From a virus, in IMG/VR virus record IMGVR_UViG_3300007554_000511, positions 48,631 through 112,630 of that record: a DNA stretch of 64,000 nucleotides; one strand, 5' to 3'. Both the position numbers and the translations under genes were made by a program. This document shows, one piece after another, positions 1,480-61,984 of the stretch. A model generated the notes under the pieces. It saw only the letters and a list, made by a program, of their open reading frames with translations. It ran no database searches and had not been told where the DNA came from. Each line of letters begins with the position of its first letter. Position 1 is the first letter of the stretch.

Positions 1480-1504
1480 ATATAAACTCCGTTAAGTTGC
1501 AACT

Positions 1505-1671
1505 TTTCTGTTGCTAGGTAAGTTGCCAACCCCCACGTGCTATTAAGCCGCTAGTTTTGCCATTGCTGGCGCTGCGTTTGTGTTTGCAGTTATAAAGTTT
1601 GACCGAATAACGTAGGTCACCACGGTTAACTCCACTCTATCTTCACACCTGTCGATTCCTAATTCAGCCCC
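1505..1671 (-). ncRNA. ssrA: tmRNA coding piece (permuted, two-piece ssrA)
   Basis: On the minus strand the RNA begins GGGGCTGAATTAGGAATCGA, the canonical 5' end of tmRNA. The GGGGCUG pairs with CAGCUCC of the acceptor piece, keeping the diagnostic G3-U pair for alanine charging. A tag reading frame starts at a GCA resume codon (1585-1587) and encodes ANTNAAPAMAKLAA, with stop codon TAA at 1543-1545 followed by TAG. Downstream, GCAACTT pairs with AAGTTGC, probably a pseudoknot or terminal hairpin. The exact 3' end is not certain. SmpB is not seen in this window. Confidence 0.9.
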
Positions 1672-1788
1672 ATCAAAAACACACTTTACAGGATTTGAAC
1701 CTGTAATCGTACTAGGGTTCCTCATCGTACTACCGTTCCTAGACCACCTTGCTTTTGCTGTATAACATACGCTTTCAAAGTGTGTTTG
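1672..1788 (-). other. Intervening transcribed spacer of the permuted tmRNA, with a tRNA-like T arm
   Basis: This 117-nt spacer joins the CCA end of the acceptor piece to the 5' G of the coding piece. Its ends form an 11-bp perfect helix (AAACACACTTT with AAAGTGTGTTT). Inside is an exact T arm: ACAGG, TTCAAAT loop, CCTGT. A 9-base direct repeat (TAGTACGAT) and a CTAGG/CCTAG helix occupy the middle. No good D arm or 7-base anticodon loop was found and the element is about 104 nt, too long for an ordinary tRNA. It is either a decayed tRNA or a processing domain for RNase P or tRNase Z. Confidence 0.65.
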
Positions 1789-1848
1789 TGGTGGAGCTGT
1801 CGGGATTCGCACCCGAGTCCAGTATGTGTCCACGTTGCTTCAACGCTA
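1789..1848 (-). ncRNA. ssrA: tmRNA acceptor piece (permuted, two-piece ssrA)
   Basis: About 60 nt ending in GACAGCTCCACCA, with a T arm (CGGGT, GCGAATC, CCCGA) and an encoded CCA at 1789-1791. A CGTTG/CAACG hairpin lies in its 5' half. It precedes the coding piece in the transcript, which is the circularly permuted order known from Alphaproteobacteria. The 5' end near 1848 is inferred from the late promoter box at 1855-1862. Confidence 0.9.
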
Positions 1849-1854
1849 ACAGTT

Positions 1855-1862
1855 TATTTATA
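1855..1862 (-). promoter_or_regulatory. T4-type late promoter for tmRNA
   Basis: The box reads TATAAATA on the minus strand, identical to the T4 late consensus, and ends about seven bases before the inferred acceptor-piece 5' end. The tmRNA is therefore probably made late in infection. Confidence 0.65.
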
Positions 1863-1890
1863 GCATATAAAGTATTAGATGTCAATAAAA

Positions 1891-3923: not shown

Positions 3924-4823
3924 CTAAGAGTAATCGTATAAATTCATACGTTCACATATTATATTTGCTGCAAGTTCATGTCCTAACTCATTCCAATGAC
4001 CGTCAGGTACAGTGTATTTAGACACAAAATCATCTCCGGATTGCAATGCATAATCGAACATGTAATACAAATAATTATATATACCCGGTTTGTCTGGTAG
4101 TGTGTATTTGAAACAATCGTAATATTTAAAATCACCTCGCTGTAGCATATCACTAAATGTATTCAACAAAGTATCACGATCATGTTGATACTTATGATAT
4201 GAATTCGAAGGCAGGCTGTGATTTTTATATTTTTCTATATAGTCATGTTCGCCGAAGTCATTCATCAGGTCAAACATATAATATTTTAATCCCCTAGATT
4301 CTAACAGAACTTTTATAGACATTACAGTTTGTACGTATGTATATAACATGGCAAGTTTGTCAAATAAAATTTCAGATATTGTAAATGAATCATTCTTCGA
4401 CAATGATATACGATTATCACCAATTTTTGATAATTGATGAAATCCTTGCAAAAATGCGGTCTGTGTAAAATCTGCATAATAGTGGTTATCATCATACTGG
4501 TGCCCCACCATTGTTCTTGTCAATGGATATGTAAGTGCAATAAGAACAAAACTGTTATCGGCTGATACCGAAGGAGTGTTATACACAAATCTTAACAGTT
4601 CTTGATACGTCCGTTGGTTCGAACCTGCAGGTATTCCAAAATTATAAGCAGCTTTAAAGCCAAGTTTGTTTTTCAACTTGTTGGTATAAGCAAGTTTATG
4701 AGTTTCTGCCGCATAATCATCAAATTCAGAAAAACCACTGTTAATAAATTTTTCGGCAACTAACCCCTGACCAAATGTAAAACTATCCCCAAAACTATAA
4801 AGTGTATAATCGTCCCAATTCAT
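3924..4823 (-). CDS. SGNH/GDSL-family hydrolase-like protein
   Basis: 299 residues. Block I is FGDSFTFGQG with the catalytic Ser at about residue 14. An oxyanion-type FGIPAGSNQ segment (Asn) follows at about residue 65. The C-terminal block DGHWNELGH (about residue 275) supplies the Asp and His. These fit an esterase or acyl hydrolase acting on lipid, glycan acetyl groups or peptidoglycan. It overlaps the deformylase gene by 4 bases and is part of the yggX-epimerase-CDF-PDF unit. A second, more diverged member lies at 41122-41856. Confidence 0.75.
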   Translation of the reverse strand: MNWDDYTLYSFGDSFTFGQGLVAEKFINSGFSEFDDYAAETHKLAYTNKLKNKLGFKAAYNFGIPAGSNQRTYQELLRFVYNTPSVSADNSFVLIALTYPLTRTMVGHQYDDNHYYADFTQTAFLQGFHQLSKIGDNRISLSKNDSFTISEILFDKLAMLYTYVQTVMSIKVLLESRGLKYYMFDLMNDFGEHDYIEKYKNHSLPSNSYHKYQHDRDTLLNTFSDMLQRGDFKYYDCFKYTLPDKPGIYNYLYYMFDYALQSGDDFVSKYTVPDGHWNELGHELAANIICERMNLYDYS

Positions 4824-5332
4824 TTTTTTGATTTTCTTCCAATTCGCTTCAACTTTTCTCTGCGTTTAGATTTTGCAATAGAAAGTGCAGTAGAACCCGC
4901 ACGTTCATCGAATGTGACTCCTTCAAGATGATCATACTCATGTTGGATTGCCTGTGCCCATACACCTACAAACTCAGAAGTCTTTCTAACACCGTTAACG
5001 TCTGTAAACTCACAACGCACTTTGTTATGACGCTTTACTTTCATCTGCAAATGTGGAAAACTCAAACACCCTTCGAGGAATAGTTCTTCCTCACTGTCTT
5101 CGGTTGGTTCCCACTTTGGATTTATACATACAACATAACCAGTGTCACGATGACCAATAACGAATACGCGTTCTGCTACACCAACTTGTGGTGCCGCTAG
5201 ACCGATTCCATCGTGTTCTTGCATAGTAACAATCATACTGTAAACTAAATCCTTAGTTTCTTCTGAAATAATATGCTCTTGACATTTCTGCTTCAATATT
5301 GGATCTGTTTCTTTTACTAACTCATACGTCAT
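4820..5332 (-). CDS. def: Peptide deformylase
   Basis: 170 residues with all three deformylase motifs: GIGLAAPQVG (about 42-51), EGCLSFP with the metal Cys (about 86-92), and QHEYDHLEG with the two metal His and catalytic Glu (about 128-136). It removes the N-formyl group from nascent peptides; native enzymes use Fe(II). The start at 5332 is preferred because GAGGA lies just upstream; it overlaps the CDF transporter stop by 11 bases. Deformylases are well known in marine phages, where they are thought to help new protein mature. Confidence 0.95.
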   Translation of the reverse strand: MTYELVKETDPILKQKCQEHIISEETKDLVYSMIVTMQEHDGIGLAAPQVGVAERVFVIGHRDTGYVVCINPKWEPTEDSEEELFLEGCLSFPHLQMKVKRHNKVRCEFTDVNGVRKTSEFVGVWAQAIQHEYDHLEGVTFDERAGSTALSIAKSKRREKLKRIGRKSKK

Positions 5333-6227
5333 AAAATAATTCCTCGTCTGGGCAATTTCCATGCTCCGCTTGAATAGTTGCATGTACTATTCCAAATTCT
5401 TTATGTAATGTTTTCTTTGCATTATAAATTGCATCATTGCAGCTACCACCATCAATTAGCGATATGTGTAGTGTTGCCGCAACCTGACCACTTGATATTT
5501 CCCATATATGTATATGATGAACATCGATAACATCGTCTACGTATGTCATTAATGTTTCTTTGAGTTTTTTAATATCTATGTTATCCGGTTTGCGTTCCAT
5601 AAGAATGTTTACACTGTCGCGTAATAATTCCCAACCACTACGTAAAATAATACCTGCTAGTATGACAGACATGATAGGATCAGCATAATACCAATCTGTA
5701 AAATATATAATTATACCTGCAACAATAGCTGCAACACTTCCGAATATATCCATGAGAACATGTAATATTGCTCCACGCATGTTTATATTGTCATGCGAAT
5801 GCCCGGCATGTAGTAATTTAAATACTACAATATTTGCTAGTAGACCAATAACCGCAATGCCAATCATCGGTAGAGGATCAACTGCCTCAACATGGACTAT
5901 TCGCCGTATTGATTCATATATAATAAACCCGAATAGAACAAACCACGCTATGGCATTAAAGAGTGCAGCGAGTACTTCACTACGTCTGTACCCATAAGAA
6001 TATTCGTCGGTTGGTTTCCTCTTGCCTACATAGAAGCCGAAGAGAGTAACACACAAGGCAAGTACATCTGTTGCCAAATGCCCAGCATCTCCTAGTAGGG
6101 CAAGTGAGTTTGTGATGACCCAGCCCCACACTTCTATTATTATGAATATTGAAAGTAGTACAATCGACCACTTCAATACGGTTTCTGATTTATGTTTTTC
6201 TCTAGTGTGATATGTTGCATGTTTCAT
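5322..6227 (-). CDS. Cation diffusion facilitator (CDF) metal efflux transporter
   Basis: 301 residues with six transmembrane segments and a C-terminal cytoplasmic domain. The metal-site pairs HxxxD are present in TM2 (GDAGHLATD) and TM5 (HVLMDIFGS). A His-rich loop (HAGHSHDN) between TM4 and TM5 is typical of the zinc CzcD/ZitB branch, and the C-terminal domain has DVHHIHIWE. It should export Zn2+ or a related divalent ion by proton antiport across the inner membrane. It is full length and looks functional. It starts four bases inside the epimerase 3' end and overlaps the deformylase. Confidence 0.95.
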   Translation of the reverse strand: MKHATYHTREKHKSETVLKWSIVLLSIFIIIEVWGWVITNSLALLGDAGHLATDVLALCVTLFGFYVGKRKPTDEYSYGYRRSEVLAALFNAIAWFVLFGFIIYESIRRIVHVEAVDPLPMIGIAVIGLLANIVVFKLLHAGHSHDNINMRGAILHVLMDIFGSVAAIVAGIIIYFTDWYYADPIMSVILAGIILRSGWELLRDSVNILMERKPDNIDIKKLKETLMTYVDDVIDVHHIHIWEISSGQVAATLHISLIDGGSCNDAIYNAKKTLHKEFGIVHATIQAEHGNCPDEELFYDV

Positions 6228-7138
6228 TGTAATAGATTCTTAAAAGTCCTGTCTATTCCGTCTGCGATTGAAACAGTCGGATGCCAATCTAGTAGTTTTT
6301 TAATTTTTGATATGTCTGCTAAAGTCTCTTTAGCATACCCTTTTGGGTTATCTATATTTATAGTCTCTAGATTAGGCGCATACTTTCGAAGAATTTCTAC
6401 AACAGCATTCACTGATATATTCGTACCAGTACCAACGTTGAAAATTTCACTCTTTACTTTGCTTTCCATACTTGCAATACACGCACGTGCAACATCGGTC
6501 ACGTGTACGTAATCTCGCATGTAATCCCCTTCACCATGAATTGTTAGAGGCTCACCCTCTTTTGCTAGTCGAGCAAACTTACCAATCATCAAACCACCTT
6601 CATTTGTGTTGGGCTGATCTTCTGAATATACGGTAAAGAAACGAAGCACATTGTAGTTCAAATCGAACATATTCTTGTACTGTTTACAAAGATGCTCCCC
6701 AAACAACTTGGTCATAGCATAATAATTCAATGGGTCAGGTTTGTGGTACGGTTTGTGCGGGGCGGGATTGTTACCGTATACACTTGAACTACTCGCATAA
6801 ACAAACTTTCGCACACCAACTGCGGCTGCGGCAGTTAGCATATTTTTCGTACCAGTCACGTTATTGTCGTAATAATCATCTGGGTTGATGAAACTTTCAG
6901 GGATACGAGGCTTTGCGGCTAAGTGTATAACATAGTCTTGGCCGGCACAAGCCATAACGCATTTTGCTGCATTTTGTATATCGCCTTTGATATACTTGAT
7001 ATGCTCCCATCCTTGCGGTTTTTCTTTTTTATCAAGAACCGAAACTTGATATCCATCTCTTATTAACTGTGACACTAACTCCGTACCGATATACCCGGCG
7101 CCGCCTGTCACTAGTACTTTACCTTTTAGCTGCATCAA
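6224..7138 (-). CDS. NAD-dependent epimerase/dehydratase (GalE-like extended SDR)
   Basis: 304 residues. The Rossmann motif VTGGAGYIGTEL is at about 9-20, a SSSSVYGNN segment carries the catalytic Ser/Thr, and YAMTK provides the Tyr-Lys pair at about 142-146. GDYMRDYVHVTD near residue 208 is typical of UDP-sugar 4-epimerases and related dehydratases. It would modify a nucleotide sugar for host envelope, virion glycan or DNA glycosylation. It follows yggX with no gap and overlaps the CDF gene. Confidence 0.9.
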   Translation of the reverse strand: MMQLKGKVLVTGGAGYIGTELVSQLIRDGYQVSVLDKKEKPQGWEHIKYIKGDIQNAAKCVMACAGQDYVIHLAAKPRIPESFINPDDYYDNNVTGTKNMLTAAAAVGVRKFVYASSSSVYGNNPAPHKPYHKPDPLNYYAMTKLFGEHLCKQYKNMFDLNYNVLRFFTVYSEDQPNTNEGGLMIGKFARLAKEGEPLTIHGEGDYMRDYVHVTDVARACIASMESKVKSEIFNVGTGTNISVNAVVEILRKYAPNLETINIDNPKGYAKETLADISKIKKLLDWHPTVSIADGIDRTFKNLLQ

Positions 7139-7423
7139 TTACCTCAAATTTGGAATGTTAGGATCAACAAAATCTTCTGGTGTTTCTAATTCAACATCTT
7201 CATAGAAAAACTTGTACCGTAATTCCGTCAAAAACGCACGTGCGTTGGGATCCATCATATTAAGACGTTCTTCGTTGATCACCATTGTTTGAAATGATAG
7301 CCATTCATTCCATGCTTTCTCTGAAATTGTATTCAGAATTTCCACTCCTGCCGCACCTGGGAACGGCGCCTTTGATTGCGCGGGGAGTTCTTGCTTGTAC
7401 TTTGCGCAAAATACTGTAGTCAT
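7139..7423 (-). CDS. yggX: YggX-family Fe(2+)-trafficking/oxidative damage protection protein
   Basis: 94 residues, the normal length of the family. The N-terminal VFCAKYKQE keeps the conserved Cys; FPGAAGVEILNTISEKAWNE and QTMVINEERLNMMDP match the YggX fold closely. In bacteria YggX supplies or protects iron for Fe-S clusters and limits superoxide damage. The start at 7423 was chosen because GGAGG lies seven bases upstream. It is the first gene of a leftward unit with its own TATAAT promoter, so it is probably expressed early. Confidence 0.9.
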   Translation of the reverse strand: MTTVFCAKYKQELPAQSKAPFPGAAGVEILNTISEKAWNEWLSFQTMVINEERLNMMDPNARAFLTELRYKFFYEDVELETPEDFVDPNIPNLR

Positions 7424-7447
7424 GTCTACCTCCATAATAATAGAAAC

Positions 7448-7626: not shown

Positions 7627-7845
7627 ATGACACAATTCGTTACAGCAATGGTAGCAATTCTTGATCTGGGTTCAGTGTTCGACCCAATCATATCCTCATA
7701 CAAGTCACTACGCGACAAAATTATCACAGACCGTGCAACTGCTATCGCTATTAAAGAACTAAACAAACTAACAGACCGTGAACTTGCAGATATTGGCATT
7801 TCACGCAGTATGATCCGTTCAGTAGCAATGGAGGCATACAAATGA
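7627..7845 (+). CDS. DUF1127 domain small protein
   Basis: 72 residues on the plus strand. The C-terminal half (ELNKLTDRELADIGISRSMIRSVA) is a clear DUF1127 (YjiS-like) domain, common in Alphaproteobacteria, where members influence RNA turnover and phosphate or carbon responses. The N-terminal half (LDLGSVFDPIISSYKSLR) is phage-specific or diverged. A GGAAG ribosome site precedes the ATG. It leads a five-gene cassette and overlaps the next gene by ATGA. Confidence 0.85.
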   Translation: MTQFVTAMVAILDLGSVFDPIISSYKSLRDKIITDRATAIAIKELNKLTDRELADIGISRSMIRSVAMEAYK

Positions 7846-8328: not shown

Positions 8329-8447
8329 TGTGGCCTTATAATGATGAAGAATGGGATTTTATTTCATTACCAAATAAAAAACCTTGGTTGTTCGCCATAC
8401 CAGTACTAGAACATAATTTTTGGATAAAAATAAAAGCCGCTCTTTGA
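8328..8447 (+). CDS. Tryptophan-rich microprotein closing the DUF1127 cassette
   Basis: 39 residues, beginning MWPYNDEEWDFISLPNKKPW, with a hydrophobic centre (WLFAIPVLEHNFW). The stop lies inside the loop of the terminator hairpin. No family recognised. It is accepted because it is tightly coupled to the preceding gene, and remains the least certain of the five. Confidence 0.5.
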   Translation: MWPYNDEEWDFISLPNKKPWLFAIPVLEHNFWIKIKAAL

Positions 8448-8457
8448 AGCGGCTTTT
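8432..8457. terminator. Bidirectional terminator between convergent units
   Basis: AAAAGCCGCT and AGCGGCTTTT form a 10-bp stem; T-rich sequence follows on both strands. It ends the plus-strand microprotein cassette and the minus-strand prkA-yeaH-spoVR operon. Confidence 0.9.
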
Positions 8458-8461
8458 ATTA

Positions 8462-9961
8462 TTATTTTATGAGACGTTTACATTCATATACATCTAACGT
8501 TTCATCGTTGTACATACTGTACAATCTAACATCGTATCCCCACAGCTTTTGAATATTGATAAGAACTTGATCTGCATCTTTCTTATTCAATCTGCGACCT
8601 TGATAACTGTGGTGAGTAAGTGTCAACTCACGTGTTTCTGTGATATCTGCTTCCGTGACCTGAATATCTGGAATCATCGCTGCTGTTTCGTACTGTGCGC
8701 TAAGACTCTTACGAACATCACGATATCCTTTTTCATTGTGAATACTTGTAACAACATAGTTGTCAAAATATTCTTCATCGTGCAGAGTGAACAATTTCCA
8801 ATCACGAATTACTTTTGGACCTAAGAATTGACGAATTGCACTTTCGTCACGATAATTCGCAACAATGTCACGAATAGTTTCGCGCCAATCAGTTCCGACA
8901 ATATGTGGGAACCATTCTTCATCTTCTTTGTCAGGTGTCTCACATGCACGTTGTACATCTTTTAGAATTGCAAATCCAAGAGCATATGGATTGAATCCAC
9001 TGTAATGCTTTGAATTGAAGTTTGGTTGATACAACACCGCACTGTGCAATTTGAAGAATTCAATCATCGCACCATCGTCAACTTTTCCTTGATTATAAAG
9101 TTCATTGAAGATGTAGTGATGCGTGAAACTTGCAAAACCTTCGTTCATAACTTTTGTTTGATATTGCGGATAGAAGTATTGTGCAATACGTCTAACAATG
9201 CGACAAATCTCACGTTGCCATGGACGAAGTACCGGAGAATGCTTTTCTAAGAAGTAAAGTAGATTTTCTTCTGGTTCACTTGGCCATACTCGTTTTTCTG
9301 CTTTCTTATCTTCTTCTTTCTTTGGTACTGTTCTCCAAAGGTCATTCACCTGCGATTGTAGATATTGACTACGTTCACGTTGTTTTTCTGCTTCAAGTTT
9401 TGCGTTCAACTTCGTAGGACGCTTATACTTGTTAATACTCTGATATTGAATTGCGTGGCAAGCATCAAGAGTTTCCTCAACGAGTGCTTCACCGTAACGT
9501 TCTTCGCATTCACGAATATAATTTTTAGCAAATACAAGATAATCTACAATGGCATCAGGCGATGTCCACTGCTTGAACAAATAGTTGTTCTTAAAGAAGT
9601 GATTGTGACCGAATGCAGCATGTGCAATAACAAGTGCCTGCGTAGTCATAGAGTTTTCTTCCATCAAATAGTTGATGCAAGGATTACTATTAATAACAAG
9701 TTCGTATGCAAGGCCCATGTGGCCTTTGCGATACTGTTGCATGTTTCCGATGAAACTCTTACCAAAACTCCAATGATTATACATTAGCGGCATGCCAACA
9801 CTGCTGTAAGCATCAAGCATCTGTTCTACTGTGATAATTTCAATTTGGTTTGGGAAGCAATCTAGTCCCATATCGTTGACTGCGATTTCTTCACACGCAT
9901 CCATGACGCTATAAAGTTTGTCGAAGTCCCAATGTGTACCGGTGTATAGTAGATTACTCAT
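8462..9961 (-). CDS. spoVR: SpoVR family protein (YcgB-like)
   Basis: 499 residues, full length for the SpoVR/YcgB family. Recognisable blocks are MPLMYNHWSFGKSF (about 57-70), YELVINSNPCINYLMEE (about 86-102) and ALVIAHAAFGHNHFFKNNYLF (about 108-128), then a C-terminal MNEGFASFTHH segment. In E. coli the homologue is co-regulated with the YeaG kinase and YeaH in stress; its biochemical role is poorly known. Here it is the third gene of a PrkA-YeaH-SpoVR operon and overlaps yeaH by 4 bases. Confidence 0.95.
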   Translation of the reverse strand: MSNLLYTGTHWDFDKLYSVMDACEEIAVNDMGLDCFPNQIEIITVEQMLDAYSSVGMPLMYNHWSFGKSFIGNMQQYRKGHMGLAYELVINSNPCINYLMEENSMTTQALVIAHAAFGHNHFFKNNYLFKQWTSPDAIVDYLVFAKNYIRECEERYGEALVEETLDACHAIQYQSINKYKRPTKLNAKLEAEKQRERSQYLQSQVNDLWRTVPKKEEDKKAEKRVWPSEPEENLLYFLEKHSPVLRPWQREICRIVRRIAQYFYPQYQTKVMNEGFASFTHHYIFNELYNQGKVDDGAMIEFFKLHSAVLYQPNFNSKHYSGFNPYALGFAILKDVQRACETPDKEDEEWFPHIVGTDWRETIRDIVANYRDESAIRQFLGPKVIRDWKLFTLHDEEYFDNYVVTSIHNEKGYRDVRKSLSAQYETAAMIPDIQVTEADITETRELTLTHHSYQGRRLNKKDADQVLINIQKLWGYDVRLYSMYNDETLDVYECKRLIK

Positions 9962-11247
9962 TTAGCTTTTGCGTCCTGTTTCTTAAATATTTCTCGGAAT
10001 ACTGGATAGATGTCTGATCTATTCTCAATATACTTAGATATGAGATTTTTGTGTGTGCTTTCTAGCTTCTTGTATTCGTCAATTAGGTTACCAGACGCGT
10101 AATAGCTACCTTTACGCATTTCACCAACCTGAATATAACTAAAATACTGTGTGATTGGTAGAATATCTTTTGACAGAATATTCTTCAATTTTTCGTTGTC
10201 TTCACTCCAGTTGTCACCATCGCTTGCTTGTGCGAAATAGATGTTCCACTCATTTGGCGAATACCTATCTTTAAGAATATCTTTCGCAAGTTCAAATGCA
10301 CTACTTACGGTTGTACCACCGTTTTCCCTGAGATTGAAGAATTCTTCTTCGGAACATTCACGTGCAGTAATGTGGTGCCTAATGAACACACATTCTACTC
10401 GCTTATACTTGCGAGAAATAAACAAGTTCAATAGCATGAAATAGCGTTTTGCAAGTTCTTTATGAAACTCTGTCATAGACGCAGAAACGTCCATAACAAA
10501 AAACACAACAGCTTGTGAAGTAGGTCTAGGTTTCTTGGAAAAGTTATTGTAACGTAAATCTACTGGATCAACGAATGCTACCGAATTTGCACGAATTCGT
10601 AGTTTACGAATTTCTTCTTCAAGTTCTAAACGCTTATCTTCGTCTTCCTCAGTTTCAAGTATCGCTTCAAGTTCACGTATCTTACGTAGCTTTGGCGTTT
10701 TCAATGCGATCTTACGACCCATTGAATTAATCATACTCTGTTCTAGATTTAGCTGTGCGGGGTTACCTTCATTGGTATAGCCACTGCGAGACATTTCAAA
10801 ACGTTCTACTGTTTTGTTCTCTTTGCTAATCATGTGAGGAAGTTCTAGGTCTTCGAAAAGTATATTGATAAATTCGTCATTGCTGAGAGCAAAACCAAAT
10901 TCGTCTTCGCCTTCGCCCTCATTGCTTGCTTTCCCTTCACCAGAGCCTCCACCAGAGCCTCCACCTTTTGGTTTCTGTAGCAAGTCCCCTTCTACGAAAT
11001 CTTCGTTTCCTGGGAGAACAATATCACGTGAACCGCTATCGCTCTTGTGATTGAATTGCGGTTCACTTATACCTTTACGAGTAATGACCACTTCTTGATC
11101 GTCCCCCGAACCTTTGATGCTGCGTTTGCCTAAAGACTCGTGGATGCTTTTTCTAATTTCATCTTTAGTTCTTTTAATGAACTTTTGACGATTACCTGAA
11201 CTTTTTCCGCCAGGATTTTTTCTTCGATCAATGATAGTGTTTGCCAT
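9958..11247 (-). CDS. yeaH: YeaH/YhbH family (DUF444) VWA-domain protein
   Basis: 429 residues, the usual length. The N-terminus is basic (RRKNPGGKSSGNRQKFIKR) and followed by a Gly/Ser-rich linker near 90-115 (KPKGGGSGGGSGEG). The C-terminal half is a von Willebrand A domain with the metal site DVSASM (about 254) and GGTT (about 309). Family members are partners of the PrkA/YeaG kinase. It lies directly between prkA and spoVR with a 4-base overlap downstream and a 9-base gap upstream. Confidence 0.95.
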   Translation of the reverse strand: MANTIIDRRKNPGGKSSGNRQKFIKRTKDEIRKSIHESLGKRSIKGSGDDQEVVITRKGISEPQFNHKSDSGSRDIVLPGNEDFVEGDLLQKPKGGGSGGGSGEGKASNEGEGEDEFGFALSNDEFINILFEDLELPHMISKENKTVERFEMSRSGYTNEGNPAQLNLEQSMINSMGRKIALKTPKLRKIRELEAILETEEDEDKRLELEEEIRKLRIRANSVAFVDPVDLRYNNFSKKPRPTSQAVVFFVMDVSASMTEFHKELAKRYFMLLNLFISRKYKRVECVFIRHHITARECSEEEFFNLRENGGTTVSSAFELAKDILKDRYSPNEWNIYFAQASDGDNWSEDNEKLKNILSKDILPITQYFSYIQVGEMRKGSYYASGNLIDEYKKLESTHKNLISKYIENRSDIYPVFREIFKKQDAKAK

Positions 11248-11256
11248 TATAAGTCC

Positions 11257-13191
11257 TTAGTTAGACTTTTGTACGCGCATATACCATTCTACTAGTCGTT
11301 TTACCTGACGCCCGGTATAACCCTTTTCGATCATGCGTGAAACAAAGTCGTTGTGCTTCTGTTCTTCTTCTTTTGACTTTTTGCTGCCGAAAGAAATAAC
11401 TGGAAGTAGTTCTTCTGTTCCTGCGAACATCTTGTTTTCGATAACTTCACGCATCTTTTCGTATGCAGTCCAAGGTGGGTTGTTACCGTCATATTTAACT
11501 CGCGCACGAAGAACCCAATTAACGACTTCATTACGGAAGTCTTTTGGATTTGCGATGCCAGCTGGTTTTTCAATCTTTTCAAGTTCTTCATTTAGAATTG
11601 AACGATCAAAGAGGTTACCGGTATCGGGATCTTTGTAATCAATATTTTGAATCCAGTGATCCGCATAATCTAGATAACGATCAAACAAGTTCTGTCCATA
11701 TTCGTTATAACTTTCTAGATATGCTTTCTGAATTTCATTACCTACTTGCTCTGCATAACGAACACTTAGATAGTCTTTGATGTATGAAAGAAGACGTTGC
11801 TCCGTTTCTTCTGGGAATTGTTCACGCTTGATTGCGGTTTCTAGAACATACATCAAGTGTACTGGGTCTGCACTAACTTCATTTGTGTCAAAGTTGAATG
11901 TCTGTGACAGAATTTTGAAAGCGAAACGAGTAGAAATACCACTCATACCTTCATCAACACCTGCAACATCTTTATATTCTTGCATCGTCTTTGCTCTTGG
12001 GTCAACATCTTGTAGATTTTCGCCATTGTACACTCGCATCTTCGCTGGAAGATTTGAGTTTGTGTGTTCTTTCAAACGTGACAGAACTGTGAACTGTGCA
12101 AGCATTTCAAGTGTGTGAGGTGCGCACTTCGAATTGTCTAGACCAGAAGACTGTAGCATCTTTGCATAGATGTGTGTTTCTTCATCTGTGCGCAAGCAGT
12201 ATGGAACTTTAACAATGTAAACACGATCCAAGAACGCTTCGTTGTTCTTGTTGTTGCGGAATGCTTCCCATTCGCTTTCGTTAGAGTGTGCAACTACTAC
12301 ACCGTTGAATGGAATAGCTGAAATGCCTTCTGTCCCCATGTAGTTGCCTTCCTGCGTTGCAGTAAGTAGTGGGTGAAGCACTTTAATTGGTGCTTTGAAC
12401 ATTTCAACGAACTCCATCATACCTTGGTTGCCTCGGCAGAGACCACCGGAGAATGCGTATGAGTCCGGATCGTTTTGTGAGAAATATTCTAGTTTACGAA
12501 TATCAGTCTTGCCTACTAGTGATGAAATGTCTTGGTTGTTATCATCACCGGGTTCAGTTTTCATGATGCCAATTTGCTTCAACTTACTTGGGTACATCTT
12601 GACTACTGAGAACTTTGTAATATCACCACTAAATTCATCAAGACGCTTTACTGCCCACGGTGAAAGTAGACCGTTGATATAACGCTTTGAGATACCATAT
12701 TCTTCTTCTAGGTCTGCTGCGAACTGCTTTGGTTCAAACAATCCTAGAGGAGTTTCAAATATTGGCGATAGTTCGTCGCCTGCTTTTAGTACATAGATTG
12801 GATGTACTTCCATTAGTTCTTTTAAACGCTCTGCGAGTGATGATTTACCACCACCAACTGGACCAAGAAGATAAAGTACTTGTTTCTTTTCTTCTAGACC
12901 TTGTGCAGAATGTCGGAAATAAGCGACCAGGCGCTCAATTGTTTCTTCCATTCCAAAGAAATCTTTGAATGCTGGATAAACTTTAATAGTACGGTTTAAG
13001 AAGATACGGCTTAGTCGTGGATCTGAACTTGTGTCAACAATTTCAGGTTCACCGATTGCTTGTAGCATACGCTCCGCCGCTGTAGCATATGCAAGCCGAT
13101 CTGTCTTACAAAGTTCTAAGTATTCAGCAATTGACATTTCATCTTCTTGCTTACTAGCATAAACTTTGGTAAACTTTTCTAGAACGCCCAT
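11257..13191 (-). CDS. prkA: PrkA/YeaG serine protein kinase (AAA+)
   Basis: 644 residues, full length for the family. An AAA+ N-terminal domain carries Walker A GPVGGGKSS (about 110), and the family blocks GLCRGNQGMMEFVEMFK and ATQEGNYMGTEGISAIPFNG follow, ending in HSNESEW and a DRVYIVKVPY block. The C-terminal kinase-like domain is present. PrkA/YeaG phosphorylates or remodels proteins during starvation and stress. This copy is intact and leads a three-gene operon from a TTGACA-type promoter at 13225-13253. Confidence 0.96.
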   Translation of the reverse strand: MGVLEKFTKVYASKQEDEMSIAEYLELCKTDRLAYATAAERMLQAIGEPEIVDTSSDPRLSRIFLNRTIKVYPAFKDFFGMEETIERLVAYFRHSAQGLEEKKQVLYLLGPVGGGKSSLAERLKELMEVHPIYVLKAGDELSPIFETPLGLFEPKQFAADLEEEYGISKRYINGLLSPWAVKRLDEFSGDITKFSVVKMYPSKLKQIGIMKTEPGDDNNQDISSLVGKTDIRKLEYFSQNDPDSYAFSGGLCRGNQGMMEFVEMFKAPIKVLHPLLTATQEGNYMGTEGISAIPFNGVVVAHSNESEWEAFRNNKNNEAFLDRVYIVKVPYCLRTDEETHIYAKMLQSSGLDNSKCAPHTLEMLAQFTVLSRLKEHTNSNLPAKMRVYNGENLQDVDPRAKTMQEYKDVAGVDEGMSGISTRFAFKILSQTFNFDTNEVSADPVHLMYVLETAIKREQFPEETEQRLLSYIKDYLSVRYAEQVGNEIQKAYLESYNEYGQNLFDRYLDYADHWIQNIDYKDPDTGNLFDRSILNEELEKIEKPAGIANPKDFRNEVVNWVLRARVKYDGNNPPWTAYEKMREVIENKMFAGTEELLPVISFGSKKSKEEEQKHNDFVSRMIEKGYTGRQVKRLVEWYMRVQKSN

Positions 13192-13224
13192 ATAATATAT
13201 TCTCCGCTTTTCTATGATGTTTTA

Positions 13225-13253
13225 ATAATACTTGTATTTGCGATTCGTGTCAA
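13225..13253 (-). promoter_or_regulatory. Sigma70-type promoter of the prkA operon
   Basis: TTGACA, 17-bp spacer, TATTAT on the minus strand. It overlaps the stop of the glycosyltransferase gene. The spacer begins with CGAATC, the same hexamer seen in five other promoters, although here it touches the -35 box instead of lying 4 bases from the -10. Confidence 0.75.
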
Positions 13254-14467: not shown

Positions 14468-15145
14468 TTATCTTTTTTGTGATTGTATCCACTGTTTTGC
14501 AGCTGGCATTTTTGGAGGAGTTGATAAGAATCTATTGATTGATTTATCAACATTCATGAAGTTTTGTTTGCGATCTGGATCTTCCAGACCACCTGAGTTA
14601 TCCACAACGTGGAAGTTTGCAGCACCAAAGACTTGCTGGAATTTCATAAGGTTCTGTTGAACCGCATTCCACATCTTTGCTACCATTTCTTTTGGGATTG
14701 ATCTTGCGCGTTGAAGATTGCGCTCTTGTGCTACTTCTTCGCTTGTGTTTACAAATAGCATCATTGTATCGTAGCCAAGTTCTTTTAGCTTTTCATTTGC
14801 TTTTGAAACTTTTGCTACATCTTTACCAGTACCGTCGATGATTAATCCTAGACGAACATCAAGATAATGATTTTCACGCTTCTTTGTAAGTTCTTTTGCA
14901 CGATTACGTGTTTCTTGACCTTTTGGACTTGCAATTGTCTCTGGATCAAGTGGCATGTCTGCTTTTTGCATTAGCCATTCATAAATTTCATCACTGTTTA
15001 CAGTTTTTAGACCTGTGCCGACAAGTAGTTTGCTGGCAATAAAAGATTTACCAGAGCCGGGACCACCAGCCATGAATACTGCTTTAAAAATGTGGGGATC
15101 ATTTACACCTTCTTCTACGGGTGATAAGATTTCTTCGATACGCAT
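14468..15145 (-). CDS. P-loop kinase (AAA_33/zeta-toxin-like)
   Basis: 225 residues. Walker A AGGPGSGKSF lies at about 26-35, followed by VNSDEIYEWLM and a GLIIDGTGKD block (about 101-110) typical of polynucleotide-kinase and zeta-toxin-like P-loop proteins. The N-terminal RIEEILSPVEEGVNDPH resembles the leader of other phage structural proteins, so it may be packaged. Substrate unknown: nucleic-acid end, nucleotide or sugar. A late promoter box lies about 25 bases upstream. Confidence 0.8.
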   Translation of the reverse strand: MRIEEILSPVEEGVNDPHIFKAVFMAGGPGSGKSFIASKLLVGTGLKTVNSDEIYEWLMQKADMPLDPETIASPKGQETRNRAKELTKKRENHYLDVRLGLIIDGTGKDVAKVSKANEKLKELGYDTMMLFVNTSEEVAQERNLQRARSIPKEMVAKMWNAVQQNLMKFQQVFGAANFHVVDNSGGLEDPDRKQNFMNVDKSINRFLSTPPKMPAAKQWIQSQKR

Positions 15146-15204: not shown

Positions 15205-16923
15205 TTATACACCTTTAAGACCATTCCATGTCGCTGTGGTATTAGATAACAACTGTGCCGAACGTGCAACTGTAGCCGTTGCGTTTGGTTTGATACGTGC
15301 ATTGTATATTTCTTTGCACTTAGATTCTTTTGTTTCGTCTTTGTTTGCGTTACTAGGTGCTGTATAAATTAAGTTTTCACGTGCATAAGACAATTGATTT
15401 GTTATCGTTGTTTCTTCATTCTGCAAAGATTCCATCAATACCTGTACGTCTCTATAATTTTCTTCACGCACGTTGTTAATGCCAGAAGACATTTCAAGTC
15501 TAAGAGTTTTTAATTTATTTCTACTAGAAAGCAAATCGTTCAAGAATACAATTTCAAAATCTCTATATGCCGCACTTTCTACTTTTGCGTTGGTGACAAC
15601 CGATGATTTTCCAGATGTAGATGTGCTACTTCCAGTCACTCCGCTAAGTGCGCCACCGATGATATTTCCGATATTGAGATTTGATTGTAAATCACCAAGC
15701 GCATTATTCAAGAATCCAGAAACTTCTGCTGCGGCGGCGTGTAAGTATGCACTCATAGGTTGATATAATTTTGCCGCTGCGGTCATTGGAGATTGTGGTA
15801 CGCCAGGTGCTGCAAATGCTGCTCTGCCTGCGGCAGCAACAGTTGACATGACTGTCGATGGATCTGCACGGCTATCAGTGCTTGTAGGTACTGCCGGTCG
15901 AGGGGATGACAGTGGTGTTAGTAACGTATTCAACGCACCCGTGATATTAGAATTACCGGTAGCCAATAGTACCGCTAGTTGGCATGGGTCAAATGCAGAC
16001 GCAGCCATAATCAATGCTTGTGCTTTTGCAAGTAGATCATTTGCAAGATTGAGCAATCCCGACAATTCACCTAAAATTTGATCTGTAATCCCTTTTACTA
16101 ATCCTGCAATTTGTCCAGCTATGTTTCCAATAGTTGCCATAATCTTGTCAAACATGGCTTTTACTGGTGCAAGAATAGCATCAATCGCACCTGCAACCGC
16201 AGATGCAAGTTGATTCAGTACATCGGTAATTGGCGCAAGTAAATCTTTAATTACTTTGGTGATATCATTAAGAAAGTCAAATGATATATTAAACTTACCC
16301 GCTAGAATGCCCAATATCTGATTAAACAAATCACAACTGTTACCTGCACCTTGTTCACTAAACTGCTTATTCATGTTTGCTAAGTTTGTTGCATCTTGCA
16401 TTATCTTTGGAAGATCGGCAATTTGTGCATCAGTGTGAGTTCTTAGCTGATTGTACATTGCAATCGTAGGATCTGGCTGTTCTAACAAATAATAAGCACC
16501 GTGTTCACTTGGAGTGAATGAACCATCAGTGCTTACTGTTGGGTGCAGAACATCAAGTCTACCCAATGACTGCAAATTAGCAGTTGCATCTGACAACGCG
16601 ATATAACCCGGATCAGATTGCAGTGTAGTGTAGTTTGCAATGCCCACGGTTGAAACAGAAATGTACGGATTAGTGAATGCAGTCGCACCACTACCAGAAG
16701 ATGCTGCTGCTAATTCTGCTGCGATTGTATTCAACGCCTGCTGTCTATTAAATTGTTCTTGTGCCGCTTCTAGCTGTGCGACCTGCTCAGGAGTTAAATC
16801 GCTCTCGCTAGTGAGATTGTAGTACTCTGCTGGCGTCATACTTGCGCCATCAAATGTATACGTACCACCGTTTCTTAAAACAAATTCCTGATATAATCGT
16901 TCATATTCTGCTTCGCTTGCCAT
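15205..16923 (-). CDS. Large baseplate-associated structural protein (candidate)
   Basis: 572 residues. The N-terminal 100 residues are Ala/Glu-rich helices. The centre (about 220-320) is a run of amphipathic, hydrophobic heptads (DVLNQLASAVAGAIDAILA, IGNIAGQIAGLVKGI) reminiscent of tape-measure or membrane-contact segments. A low-complexity Ser/Ala linker and a coiled-coil C-terminus follow. It is immediately downstream of the PAAR gene, and similar proteins accompany PAAR and baseplate genes in T4-like marine phages. A role in the tail tip or host membrane contact is inferred. Confidence 0.6.
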   Translation of the reverse strand: MASEAEYERLYQEFVLRNGGTYTFDGASMTPAEYYNLTSESDLTPEQVAQLEAAQEQFNRQQALNTIAAELAAASSGSGATAFTNPYISVSTVGIANYTTLQSDPGYIALSDATANLQSLGRLDVLHPTVSTDGSFTPSEHGAYYLLEQPDPTIAMYNQLRTHTDAQIADLPKIMQDATNLANMNKQFSEQGAGNSCDLFNQILGILAGKFNISFDFLNDITKVIKDLLAPITDVLNQLASAVAGAIDAILAPVKAMFDKIMATIGNIAGQIAGLVKGITDQILGELSGLLNLANDLLAKAQALIMAASAFDPCQLAVLLATGNSNITGALNTLLTPLSSPRPAVPTSTDSRADPSTVMSTVAAAGRAAFAAPGVPQSPMTAAAKLYQPMSAYLHAAAAEVSGFLNNALGDLQSNLNIGNIIGGALSGVTGSSTSTSGKSSVVTNAKVESAAYRDFEIVFLNDLLSSRNKLKTLRLEMSSGINNVREENYRDVQVLMESLQNEETTITNQLSYARENLIYTAPSNANKDETKESKCKEIYNARIKPNATATVARSAQLLSNTTATWNGLKGV

Positions 16924-18003: not shown

Positions 18004-18786
18004 TTACATTGACCAGCGTTTAATTGTATAGCTAATTTCTGTTGTAAAATCAGCATCCTGTGTATAACTTACATACATGTTGTCAGCATCAAGTGTCGCA
18101 AAGAATGAAATGTTAGAAAATTCGTCTGCCTCTGCGATACCGTCACTATCATCTTGCCAAATTTCAGTGTTGTTGTCTGTTAATTTGACTTGTTCTATTC
18201 CATGAGGTGCACCATTGATTATCTGTAACGTACCCACACGAACATATGTAACTACACCATCTGTTTGCTTTAGTGAATAGTCCACAAAATATGTAGTGCA
18301 TATGTCTCTATCATATGTTAGAAATGTTCCAGCGGTCGTGTCTAGAGTTTTCATGTAAAGACTAGGGCGGCGACCTGTAATTGCGTCACGTGATGTCAAA
18401 TGCTGTTCTGTAAACAATTGTGTATAGGAGTTTTCAGTTAAGACTTCAACGTGTTTTCTAGGTCTGCCATATTCCGACACGTTAAACGGACCAGTTTCGA
18501 ACATCGCAAGCAACAGTGCATCAACGTCTTCTACGTTTCTGATAACTAGGTCCTCTTCAATAAACAGACCCGGCTCTGGGTTATCCGGTGAATCCAACCA
18601 AGACTGTACAACCGCATGTGCATTAGCAAATGGATCAAATATGATTTCATCAATCGCATTTTCTGTACCAACATACACTTGGTTTGTATCGGATGTAACG
18701 CCCATTTCTGATGGGTCTAATGCTGCACTTGTTAGTTCTGACCGCAATCCGCGTCTTAGTAGAATTTTTACGTTTTCTGTTGCCAT
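18004..18786 (-). CDS. Virion protein with phage fibre-type N-terminal domain
   Basis: 260 residues. The start VKILLRRGLRSELTSAALDP then EMGVTSDTNQVYVGT is the short repeat-like module found at the N-terminus of many tail fibres, where it fixes the fibre to the virion. The rest is beta-rich and ends TEISYTIKRWSM. Probably a short fibre or baseplate decoration protein. Driven by the late box at 18810-18818. Confidence 0.7.
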   Translation of the reverse strand: MATENVKILLRRGLRSELTSAALDPSEMGVTSDTNQVYVGTENAIDEIIFDPFANAHAVVQSWLDSPDNPEPGLFIEEDLVIRNVEDVDALLLAMFETGPFNVSEYGRPRKHVEVLTENSYTQLFTEQHLTSRDAITGRRPSLYMKTLDTTAGTFLTYDRDICTTYFVDYSLKQTDGVVTYVRVGTLQIINGAPHGIEQVKLTDNNTEIWQDDSDGIAEADEFSNISFFATLDADNMYVSYTQDADFTTEISYTIKRWSM

Positions 18787-20389: not shown

Positions 20390-21631
20390 TTATCTCTTTG
20401 CACGACCTAGTGGGTCATCAACTGGACCTGATGTTGCTTCATCGCCGCCCATTGCATCAACTTCGATATCTGATTCAAAATCATCGCCCATGTCGCCACC
20501 TAGTTCAGGCTCACCCGCTGTCATGTCTGTTGCTGGTGCTTGACCGTTTAGAACTAGTACTGCGTTGTTTACTTCGTCTTTTGTTTGACGCGCTGTATCA
20601 AGTAGTGTTGAGATTGCTGCATCAGTTGACGCTTTGAACGCATCTGCCTGTTCAGGACCGTGTGTATAGCTCATTTCATCTGCTAGAGGACCAAGTTGAT
20701 CGTTTTGAATTTTACCTAGCTTTTCGATGATGTCTTGTAGTTCGTCTACGATACCACGCGCTGCCATTATGATTTCTGCTTCCGCTGCATCACCTTCTAG
20801 AAGCGCATTTAGTTGTGCTAGTAGACCTTCTTCTAGTTTTGTCTTTTTCATCTTATATTCCTTTGGTGCTTTATAAGAATTTTCATAATTCTTCTTATTT
20901 GTATCAACCTTAGGCTGTACTGATTCAGTTGCAGTATGCTTAACATCTGCTAGGTGAGCATCGATACCTGCTGTTGATTTTAGACCCCATGCTTTAGCTG
21001 CTTTCTTTGCTGCTTCGTATGATGATCCTGCTGTGCAGCTATGTTTACCTTTTTTAGCATGTACGCAAACATAAGGACGTTCCGCTGCTTCTGATACATT
21101 TTCTTCTGTGATGCCGTGCTTTTTCATAAGTGCAGCTTTTTGAGCTTTCAGATCCTTGATTTTCTGAGGTGCTTTCATATCATTTGGATTGCCAGCACTC
21201 TTATTTTTCCAACGTCTTGTCCAATCACGAATTGACAAGTCAATGTTGGCCAACTGATCTTTAACTGCATTTGAAACTTCATCAAGTTTTGTGCCTTCTT
21301 CGACTTTATCTTCTACTTTGCCTGCATCTAGCGGACCTTTTTTCTTACCTTTTTTCTTATCTTGGTAAGCCTTAAGTCCTGGCGGCAGTTCACCTTCAGC
21401 AACATGCGCTTTAAGTAATGATTTTATTGTTTCAAGCATTAGCATGTTTTCGACATACGCACGATCCTGATGATCTGCTCTCATGTCACGCTTCTGTGCT
21501 TCTAGACTCGCTTTCGCTTCACGTAGGGAAGCGAGGTCGCCTTCGATTTCATAACCGAAGTTATTCTTTAGATACTCATTCATACGTGATGAAATCATAA
21601 CTGTGTTTGTTTTAAAAAATGAATTTTTCAT
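20390..21631 (-). CDS. Head-associated structural protein (candidate)
   Basis: 413 residues in modules: an N-terminal helical part (1-80), a Lys-rich linker, a central segment with YVCVHAKKGKHSC and SSYEAAKKAAKAWGLKS (about 190-220) that recurs in marine phage proteins, and a C-terminal helical domain (AEIIMAARGIVDELQDIIEK onwards) like cyanophage virion or prohead-core proteins, ending in an acidic tail. Function is inferred from resemblance and from the late promoter at 21664-21672. Confidence 0.55.
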   Translation of the reverse strand: MKNSFFKTNTVMISSRMNEYLKNNFGYEIEGDLASLREAKASLEAQKRDMRADHQDRAYVENMLMLETIKSLLKAHVAEGELPPGLKAYQDKKKGKKKGPLDAGKVEDKVEEGTKLDEVSNAVKDQLANIDLSIRDWTRRWKNKSAGNPNDMKAPQKIKDLKAQKAALMKKHGITEENVSEAAERPYVCVHAKKGKHSCTAGSSYEAAKKAAKAWGLKSTAGIDAHLADVKHTATESVQPKVDTNKKNYENSYKAPKEYKMKKTKLEEGLLAQLNALLEGDAAEAEIIMAARGIVDELQDIIEKLGKIQNDQLGPLADEMSYTHGPEQADAFKASTDAAISTLLDTARQTKDEVNNAVLVLNGQAPATDMTAGEPELGGDMGDDFESDIEVDAMGGDEATSGPVDDPLGRAKR

Positions 21632-45683: not shown

Positions 45684-46316
45684 TTATTTAATATAAGATA
45701 CTGAAATTGGCTCTTTAACTCGTCTAGTTACTTTTACACCTAGAGTATGGTGTTCGCGTCTTTCTCTGTTCGGATCTTTGTATCCAACACCCATTAATAG
45801 AATTGGTGCATTTTTTAAGCCCAATACCTCTTGTATTTTGTCAAATTGACCACATGCACAGCATCCAGTTTGATATCCTAACATAGAAGCAATTACGTTA
45901 ACATAACCAGCTGCTATACCAACTGCCATGTCTTTATCTTTATTGTATGTAAACTCTGAATCTGAATCCCTAGATTTTAGTTTATACTTATAAGCCTCTG
46001 ATACGTCTGCTTCTTCAAACACAATTAGCAGATTTGCTAATGTTTGAGAATTAGTAATGTCAGTACGAACGCCTGTTTTTGGATCAGTCACGCCCAAACC
46101 AGTAGTAAGTTCGTGCACCTGTTCAATAGTTTCTCTATTTGTGATTACGTGTACGTTGTAAAATGCAAAGTTTTGTTTACTAGGACATGTAGTTACGGCA
46201 TGCACCAACATATCAATGTCATCCTGTGGCATTTCTTTTGATAGGTCCCAGTTTCTCTGAGTGTGTTGGCTTCTAACTACCGCTTTTTTCATTTCTTCGT
46301 GTAAGTTCGGGATCAT
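45684..46316 (-). CDS. Nitroreductase-family flavoprotein
   Basis: 210 residues. QHTQRNWDLSKEMPQDDIDM and TTCPSKQNFAFYNVHVI match the FMN-binding start of nitroreductases; AAGYVNVIASMLGYQTGCCA is the central helix. Probably an FMN NAD(P)H oxidoreductase; known in cyanophages. It has a late-type box upstream, unlike the neighbouring nrd genes. Confidence 0.75.
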   Translation of the reverse strand: MIPNLHEEMKKAVVRSQHTQRNWDLSKEMPQDDIDMLVHAVTTCPSKQNFAFYNVHVITNRETIEQVHELTTGLGVTDPKTGVRTDITNSQTLANLLIVFEEADVSEAYKYKLKSRDSDSEFTYNKDKDMAVGIAAGYVNVIASMLGYQTGCCACGQFDKIQEVLGLKNAPILLMGVGYKDPNRERREHHTLGVKVTRRVKEPISVSYIK

Positions 46317-56572: not shown

Positions 56573-57532
56573 TTATGTCAATGGATATATGCGAAGTGCG
56601 TAGTCGTATCCTGTAGGAGAACCTGCATATGAGTATTTTGCAACAAGATAATTATCATTCATAATAATATACACAGTGCCAATAGTATTCATATCAGACA
56701 CATCAATTGTATATTTAACTTCCGATGTTGCTTTATCTGTGATAGTTACTGTCTGACCATCTGACACCGCAGTATAACTTGTGGACTCAGCAGTCAATGT
56801 TTGTGTACCATTAGGGAATGGAGGAGTTGATGAAATATTCGCCTGATATGCAGTAGTACCTTCTGCACTTAGTGAATACTGCACTCGTTCTGAGTTTAGT
56901 TGCCATACATACAGTGTAGAACCAGAAACCTCAACGTTTTGACCAATTAATTGGCTTAGAGAAGAACCTTTACGAACTTCCGTATTCATACCATCTGATA
57001 GTTGGTAAATTGCTACCGCACCAGAGTTACGTGTTGCATATGCTTCGGCCGCGCCGTATGCACCAACTGCTAAGTGTGTATCGTTCATACTGATTGAAAA
57101 GCCGTGATATGAAAAACTATCATATGCGCCTAGTGATGGTCTGACGATAGGTGTATATGATGTAACTGCGATAGGCCAAGCAGGTGCAGATGGAGTTGAG
57201 GTGGATGAACCAAGTGCATCTGCTTCTCCATAGTATGGACCAGCTACATCTGCGTATGCAAAGTCATGAGTAATTGTACCGTTGCCTTCTGTTACCAATC
57301 CCATATCCTGCGTATCAACTACAACGCGGTCTGTGATTGTACTTAAATCTGTACGTGTTCTAGTGGCTGATGTTGCACCCAGAGACCCTCGGTGCGCCGC
57401 ACCAGAAGTTGGTAGGTCACCAGAATCGTCTGTGATTAAACCCAGATCGCCAAGTTCTCTCAAATCAATAGAACGGCGAAGAATTACCTTTTTCATTGCC
57501 GTACCGATATTTTTTAAACCTCTGTATTTCAT
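56573..57532 (-). CDS. Beta-rich virion protein, putative fibre with FG-GAP-like repeat
   Basis: 319 residues. The N-terminal 80 residues (ELGDLGLITDDSGDLP, then RVVVDTQDMGLVTEGNGTI) look like a repeated attachment module. YHGFSISMNDTHLAVGAYGA then TRNSGAVAIYQLSDG resembles an FG-GAP/integrin-type blade. C-terminus beta-rich. Late monocistronic unit between terminase subunits. A short tail fibre or adhesin is likely; not proven. Confidence 0.6.
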   Translation of the reverse strand: MKYRGLKNIGTAMKKVILRRSIDLRELGDLGLITDDSGDLPTSGAAHRGSLGATSATRTRTDLSTITDRVVVDTQDMGLVTEGNGTITHDFAYADVAGPYYGEADALGSSTSTPSAPAWPIAVTSYTPIVRPSLGAYDSFSYHGFSISMNDTHLAVGAYGAAEAYATRNSGAVAIYQLSDGMNTEVRKGSSLSQLIGQNVEVSGSTLYVWQLNSERVQYSLSAEGTTAYQANISSTPPFPNGTQTLTAESTSYTAVSDGQTVTITDKATSEVKYTIDVSDMNTIGTVYIIMNDNYLVAKYSYAGSPTGYDYALRIYPLT

Positions 57533-61940: not shown

Positions 61941-61984
61941 AATTATGTCTCCTGTTATAGTTTGCAAACTATGTTATTATACAA

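Follow-up and report, generated by a model that had tools for sequence, protein, structure and literature searches.

Why does a virus carry what looks like a complete bacterial stress operon, and what might it gain from it? The question is raised by a 64,000-nucleotide stretch of DNA (the window), part of the 112,630-bp virus record IMGVR_UViG_3300007554_000511 in IMG/VR, in which prkA, yeaH and spoVR, genes for three widely kept bacterial stress proteins, lie one behind the other on the minus strand. An earlier reading of the letters alone, the original prediction, had taken the locus for a ready-made regulator of host stress or persistence that could tune lysis timing. Comparison with viral and bacterial relatives suggests that viruses use the triad to control the physiology of infected cells, and we see about an even chance that a jumbo phage here carries a working copy of prkA-yeaH-spoVR as a host-control cassette.

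The operon and its phage genome

The locus holds three genes flanked by candidate control elements.

11257..13191, minus strand: prkA, yeaG-type AAA+ protein or putative serine kinase, 644 aa; PF08298 and PF06798 at full length
9958..11247, minus strand: yeaH, DUF444, VWA domain with a metal-ion-dependent adhesion site (MIDAS), 429 aa; PF04285 at full length
8462..9961, minus strand: spoVR, ycgB-type, 499 aa; PF04293 and PF24755, with H114, H119 and E274 invariant
13225..13253, minus strand: sigma70-like promoter TTGACA-17-TATTAT 5' of prkA, 11/12 match
8429..8460, minus strand: intrinsic terminator-like hairpin with a 13-bp stem 3' of spoVR, followed on the minus strand by a T-rich stretch

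Three full-length genes in the bacterial order, tightly spaced and closed by a terminator, had been predicted; the genes are found at exactly these coordinates, on one strand between 8462 and 13191, with a terminator-like hairpin behind them. A gap of 9 nt separates prkA from yeaH, and yeaH and spoVR overlap by 4 nt. The Pfam profiles are covered throughout: PF08298 (1.2e-175, profile 1-358/358) and PF06798 (1.9e-67, 3-255/255) in PrkA, PF04285 (5.7e-152, 2-418/418) in YeaH, and PF04293 (7.2e-162) together with the SpoVR C-terminal domain in SpoVR. The hairpin lies just beyond the predicted start of the locus; the search called it on the plus strand, and reading the minus strand gives the hairpin and then the T-rich stretch.

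That the operon sits on a phage is borne out by the genes for terminase, tail sheath, tail-tube, replicative helicase and ribonucleotide reductase on the contig. The terminase is closest to those of the jumbo myoviruses PA5oct (55%), Atu_ph07 (52%) and 121Q (46%), and the phage is a jumbo phage of the T4 type, probably with an alphaproteobacterium as its host. Given the metagenomic origin and a record of 112,630 bp, bacterial and phage DNA might have been joined by assembly or binning, a risk named with the original prediction. No such join was found: two IMG/VR contigs with different sample ids, L002 (342,181 bp) and L003 (245,963 bp), share with the window, at 100% identity, a stretch of 21,932 bp that spans the locus and its flanks, and L038 is 99.99% identical over 15,066 bp. 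Diverged relatives have the same flanking phage genes, and among 50 of the contigs with triad genes described below that were searched for terminase, 16 have it, including 11 of the 14 that reach at least 100 kb. An assembly chimera is ruled out by the contig identities and the flanking genes of the diverged relatives, and we regard it as vanishingly improbable. The tail-sheath family PF04984 did not serve as a phage marker, since it matched 6 of the 50 contigs and missed the phage contigs of the window itself.

Conservation and ancestry of the triad

In bacteria the corresponding genes form a starvation module, in line with the original prediction. Passages of PMC10954441 describe YeaG and YeaH acting jointly as a 'metabolic brake' that quiesces metabolism in nitrogen-starved E. 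coli and slows recovery, and passages of PMC3188799 describe an RT-PCR-confirmed three-gene operon in the alphaproteobacterium R. etli (CH02817-CH02815) that depends on RpoN as well as on the alarmone (p)ppGpp, with prkA more than 27-fold (p)ppGpp-dependent. The phage locus matches the bacterial prkA/yeaG-yeaH-spoVR/ycgB operon in families, order, strand and catalytic residues; it differs in lying on a jumbo phage, in falling within viral sets of the trees and in having a sigma70-like promoter as against RpoN and (p)ppGpp control in R. etli.

Several lines of evidence indicate that the phage proteins are intact. In the passages of PMC4664914 on residue function, the E. coli YeaG variants K116A, R232A and K426A, present at 64, 48 and 100% of the wild-type level, fail to complement. 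The phage PrkA equivalents (numbered after the Enterobacter YeaG of record MN688132) are K116, R232 and K426, so that no inactivating substitution, the other risk named with the original prediction, is present at these tested sites; 55/55, 54/55 and 55/55 viral PrkA representatives, respectively, share the three residues. The Walker A lysine K116 and the YeaH metal site were likewise found as predicted, the latter as D253/S255/S257, T312 and D343, and the D/S/S/T/D pattern recurs in 69/69 viral rows. Columns invariant in bacteria are kept by the window at 212/215 positions in PrkA (40 bacterial rows), 66/71 in YeaH (80) and 101/105 in SpoVR (76); where PrkA departs the change is mostly conservative, which holds less for YeaH and SpoVR (e.g. 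W389I, A135P, F375A). PrkA matches a PrkA-family structure on record, 9xip, at E 6.9e-52, and the AlphaFold2 model of YeaH has a VWA fold (mean pLDDT, the predicted local distance difference test score, 75.8; best Foldseek E 1.8e-6). The phage operon is thus very probably a functional copy of the bacterial machine.

Phages do acquire host genes, and bacterial PrkA is up to 69-71% identical to the phage protein, which raises the possibility of a recent neutral or decaying passenger from the host. Pairwise ratios of nonsynonymous to synonymous substitution rates (dN/dS) between viral copies are 0.02-0.14, taken over pairs with finite dS and excluding the near-identical L006/L007 pair; the window's own comparisons have dS of 1.8-2.2, close to saturation. 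The viral copies are under purifying selection. The GC content of the operon (~0.38-0.40) is in line with the remaining window. Together with the distribution and the deep all-viral tree set described next, these values refute a passenger for the viral clade, and as an explanation of the locus it is very improbable.

The locus is less singular than the original prediction implied. A homologue search of viral genomes, as had been proposed, yielded 55 viral loci by PrkA and, by SpoVR, 127, of which the best 80 were used; together these are 107 distinct IMG/VR contigs, 28 of them shared. In 89 of the 107 the prkA-yeaH-spoVR triad is complete, in the same order and on one strand, and the remaining 18 are cut by a contig end. 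Presence here means a tblastn match at E 1e-8, which need not be full length, and some spoVR matches reach the contig end. The contigs include many near-copies; clustering at 93% PrkA identity gives 55 viral clusters, the window and three GenBank huge phages among them. Among bacterial loci 78/80 have the same order, and 2 are without a spoVR match (their contig ends were not checked). Across the 55 viral representatives PrkA recurs in 55, YeaH in 55 and SpoVR in 51, a lower bound set by a simple open reading frame (ORF) caller, and the next family recurs in 9. Flanking genes, up to 10 kb on each side, are common mainly to the window clade of 8-9 representatives; epimerase and deformylase flanks recur in a few viral representatives beyond it. 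The distances of PrkA, YeaH and SpoVR co-vary among viruses (Spearman 0.80, 0.59 and 0.49; maxima of 500 permutations at most 0.22). The triad stays constant while most of its neighbours vary, which argues that PrkA, YeaH and SpoVR work as one unit.

Cultured phages also have relatives of the operon. The lytic Ralstonia jumbo phage RsoM2USA encodes PrkA (ORF30) and SpoVR (ORF28) on one strand with ~1.36 kb between them, room for a yeaH-sized gene; ORF29 goes unmentioned in the text of PMC8504454, whose passages discuss no operon. The Thermus phages phiYS40, TMA, phiLo, MN1 and Lalka carry versions ~23-36% identical, arranged as VWA - SpoVR - (x) - PrkA. In the four examined the order is VWA-SpoVR-PrkA, the position of K426 holds D and R232 is not always kept, pointing to a diverged subfamily. 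The huge phages LR745206, LR756502 and LR756504 have all three genes, with PrkA 59-62% identical; in the PrkA tree they lie apart from the all-viral set that holds the window. In LR756502 spoVR lies ~240 kb from prkA-yeaH, yet is kept. The linear record of 'Enterobacter phage LAU1' begins with YeaG-YeaH at nucleotide 1 and has no spoVR; this pair is a probable host flank, and LAU1 was used for E. coli YeaG numbering and pooled with the bacteria.

We compared the window with bacterial operons, including the alphaproteobacterial ones named with the original prediction, in two trees. For the bacterial set we took the 80 best among 206 hits of a scan and added LAU1 as well as 30 loci of a single phylum; thinning reduced these to 39 rows in the PrkA tree and to 29, each with all three genes, in the three-gene tree. 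Neither tree includes the Thermus phages or LR756511, which are too diverged, and the concatenated tree is without L056 and L216; six viral clusters lack three full-length genes, because L037 and L039 are cut, spoVR lies elsewhere in L222, and L048, L051 and L223 have inserts. In the PrkA tree (94 rows) the window falls within an all-viral set of 25 (SH-aLRT 95). In the concatenated three-protein tree (76 rows) a fully supported branch has on one side 36 viral rows and an alphaproteobacterial clade, made up of 10 bacteria and the viral contig L199, and on the opposite side 10 viral rows, including a 634-kb huge phage, and 19 gamma- and betaproteobacteria. In the best tree a branch, without support, sets the 36 viral rows apart. 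The grouping of all 47 viral rows into a single clade is rejected (p-AU, approximately unbiased test, 1.4e-7), as is joining L199 to the 36 (p 0.0014); L199 represents either another capture or bacterial DNA called viral by mistake. The trees indicate that phages captured the operon at least twice and that the window's operon lineage is long viral. The bacteria named in the tree are Pseudomonadota, the nearest relatives, and the direction and number of transfers, as well as any nesting of bacteria among viruses, depend on this sample.

A putative metal site in SpoVR

What SpoVR contributes to the machine is suggested by its fold and its invariant residues. The AlphaFold2 model (pLDDT 84.7; predicted template modelling score, pTM, 0.84) had no significant Foldseek match to known structures, with none below E 0.3. 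When Foldseek's 710 candidates were re-aligned, the top run consisted of zinc metallopeptidases of several families: the best was the putative lipoprotein 3o0y (Z 12.8; 201 residues, 4.1 A), followed by LTA4H/M1 (~10), M30 (9.7), M32 (9.7), ACE (~9) and LasB (8.5), with Z of 8-10.5 overall. Z scores of this size can arise by chance with helical models. The family names follow in part the titles of the structures.

Across 64 SpoVR proteins with identity down to ~25%, only 16 positions are invariant, and H114, H119, E274 and G275 are among them. In diverged members the pattern is HxxGH ... (H/N)EG.A, which keeps the i, i+4 histidine spacing seen in metallopeptidases. None of the 64 has the HExxH motif typical of MA-clan (gluzincin) metallopeptidases; they read HAAFGH, or HxxGH in diverged members, with no catalytic Glu. 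A profile search of PDB sequences had no match at E of 10 or lower, hhalign found no link to the 25 sequences of M1 and 9 of M32 that were compared, and Peptidase_M1 was matched by 1 of 59 members at E 0.025, level with several unrelated families; DUF4581 was matched by 15 of the 59 (best 0.00084). As the sequence methods give no confirmation, the likeness to metallopeptidases rests on fold and conserved residues, and SpoVR was not filed as a member of a metallopeptidase family.

Three of 206 SpoVR frames, all three viral, carry intein-like inserts beside this putative site (lengths counted from NEG).

13304-16054 of L048: viral spoVR with an insert of 408 aa; LAGLIDADG_3 at 6.9e-20 and Intein_splicing at 2.5e-6, below the curated cut-off
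13020-15434 of L051: viral spoVR with an insert of 291 aa that has no Pfam match
14474-16375 of L223 (LR756504): viral spoVR with an insert of 129 aa that has no Pfam match

All three inserts lie directly behind the NEG/NEGWA motif that contains E274, and the frames are open throughout. By our reading of the sequence, the inserts of L051 and L223 end in HN-C or GN-C, as inteins do. Conserved active-site motifs are known insertion sites of inteins, and the inserts would thus mark the E274 region, independently of the alignment, as critical. SpoVR may work like a metalloprotein of the zinc-metallopeptidase fold with an H-H-E site. That it is a metal-dependent effector we hold, on these models, to be a possibility slightly short of even, a little stronger than before the inserts came to light. 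The fold, the invariant H-H-E residues and the inserts at NEG give a concrete, testable site in SpoVR.

Expression and possible role in the infected cell

The near-consensus sigma70 promoter that had been predicted is present, and it is not a fixture of the operon, as the closest relatives lack it. We searched upstream of the mechanically called minus-strand ORFs of the window (n=105) for promoter-like sites. Sigma70-like sites of at least 9/12 are no commoner in the window than in shuffles (27 vs 24.2, sd 5.0). Sites of at least 11/12 lie within 100 nt upstream of 4 of the 105 ORFs as against 0.18% of in-gene controls, and exact GATAAATAC, which we take to resemble the T4 late promoter, lies upstream of 8 as against 0.06%. 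The latter include the ORFs at 61344-61967, 56573-57532 and 53456-54898 and three of the four genes listed here, at 14468, 18004 and 20390.

14468-15145: Zeta_toxin/AAA_33-like kinase gene, upstream of the operon
15205-16923: tape-measure-like gene, a structural gene near the operon
18004-18786: Mtd_N-like tail protein, a structural gene near the operon
20390-21631: virion protein, a structural gene near the operon

The sigma70 class contains prkA and the replicative helicase, and the GATAAATAC class contains the virion protein and the Mtd_N-like tail protein; GATAAATAC is likely the late-promoter motif of the window's jumbo phage. Among 52 viral representatives, with L206 and L216 having too little upstream DNA, 7 have a sigma70-like site of at least 10/12 upstream of prkA, as against ~1.5% of controls. 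Early transcription of prkA is a fair guess for the window's phage and not across the family. A near-palindromic element resembling TAACTACTGTAGTAAGA occurs 35-60 nt upstream of the prkA ATG in many of the window's relatives L012-L037 and was not seen in the window itself.

In the mechanism we favour, host RNA polymerase would transcribe the phage operon early, and its products would form a machine of the bacterial type with PrkA as AAA+ motor, YeaH as MIDAS/VWA adaptor and SpoVR as metalloprotein-like effector. This machine would make the infected cell quiescent and stress-adapted, much as YeaGH does in E. coli starved of nitrogen, but without depending on starvation signals of the host itself, and the quiescent host would stay viable through a long jumbo-phage cycle. 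The role of a switch of quiescence or stress state is suggested by the bacterial function together with the intact residues; a host stress regulator, as in the original prediction, is plausible, and nothing that we found supports its suggested role in lysis timing. That the benefit lies in quiescence or stress adaptation seems to us evenly balanced. A fuller version is more tentative and perhaps somewhat doubtful: the AAA+ motor and MIDAS adaptor would drive a SpoVR of diverged zinc-peptidase fold, with an H-H-E site, the general base changed or missing and inteins beside it, and jumbo phages, having captured the operon at least twice, would have kept it long because enforced host quiescence belongs to their life cycle in general.

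Several observations weigh against host control by an early, bacterial-type machine. None of the eight viral representatives nearest to the window keeps the sigma70 site of prkA (a weak 10/12 site in one, 7-8/12 in the others), and in two of these eight late-like motifs (8/9) lie upstream of prkA instead; as the site is not conserved, early timing is weak for the family. No sigma54 site (score at least 9) was found upstream in 53 viral copies; because such sites precede only 6 of the 80 bacterial control copies, rewired control is not demonstrated. None of 16 fragmentary contigs with a related terminase, out of 62 terminase loci, has PrkA, which speaks against ubiquity; the test shows little, as the 16 span 26-71 kb, a small part of a ~340-kb genome, and two of the other 46 loci lie on the PrkA-carrying contigs of L002 and L003. 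For the bacterial proteins, passages of PMC13001217 attribute AAA+ features to B. anthracis PrkA, with negligible kinase and protease activity, and present PrkA as a disputed protein kinase, and those of PMC3188799 report that loss of prkA in R. etli impaired neither growth, across 384 nitrogen sources, nor survival in the stresses tried.

The late-like motifs would also suit a different role, in which the AAA+/VWA pair has been re-tasked as a phage chaperone for virion assembly or DNA packaging and has no part in host stress. The structural genes near the operon fit this, as does the VWA-SpoVR-PrkA block of Thermus phage Lalka8, which lies between portal/minor head genes and TerL. However, the neighbours mostly differ among viral lineages, exact GATAAATAC precedes at least two virion or tail genes in the window and not prkA, and the near-complete retention of bacteria-invariant PrkA columns is unlike a re-tasked protein; we consider this role unlikely. 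A similarly low probability attaches to an operon directed against, or manipulating, defence or toxin-antitoxin responses of the host, for which one could cite the YeaG-dependent repression of mqsRA and dinJ-yafQ in E. coli (passages of PMC4664914) and the Zeta_toxin/AAA_33-like kinase gene upstream. That gene recurs in the window clade only (9/55), and PADLOC returned just two weak matches, IetA on the PrkA ATPase region (E 0.00096) and VakA on the neighbouring kinase (3.4e-5), with none for YeaH or SpoVR, so that the operon was not assigned to a defence system.

The phage triad gains interest from its breadth and from the strictness of its retention; as parts, PrkA and SpoVR were already known on phages. 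Our search of the open-access literature, with subscription papers and preprints outside its scope, listed no publication on the complete operon as a module of phages. In viromes of the Eastern Tropical North Pacific oxygen minimum zone spoVR is reported as the most abundant sporulation-related gene (PMC8940887); the paper links it to spore formation, and its main text has no mention of PrkA or YeaG. The triad would link such marine-virome 'sporulation genes' to a complete quiescence-type module and not to sporulation. For comparative work the triad supplies fast-evolving material, and phages may give a handle on the module's effect on cell physiology.

Beyond the operon, the window contains further genes of note.

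4820-7435, minus strand: host-like cluster downstream of the operon, with genes for peptide deformylase, cation-efflux transporter, NAD-dependent epimerase and YggX-type Fe(II)-trafficking protein
7627-7845, plus strand: DUF1127 protein of 72 aa (PF06568, 6.1e-10), on the strand opposite most large window ORFs
45684-46316, minus strand: nitroreductase-family protein (PF00881, 1.2e-9)
1495-1889, minus strand: permuted alphaproteobacterial-type transfer-messenger RNA (tmRNA) gene (RF01849, 91.7 bits; RF04321, 101.8 bits) with the tag ANTNAAPAMAKLAA

A 110-base piece of the tmRNA gene is 76% identical to Phaeobacter phage MD18 and to DSS3_MAL1, a match that hints at an alphaproteobacterial host.

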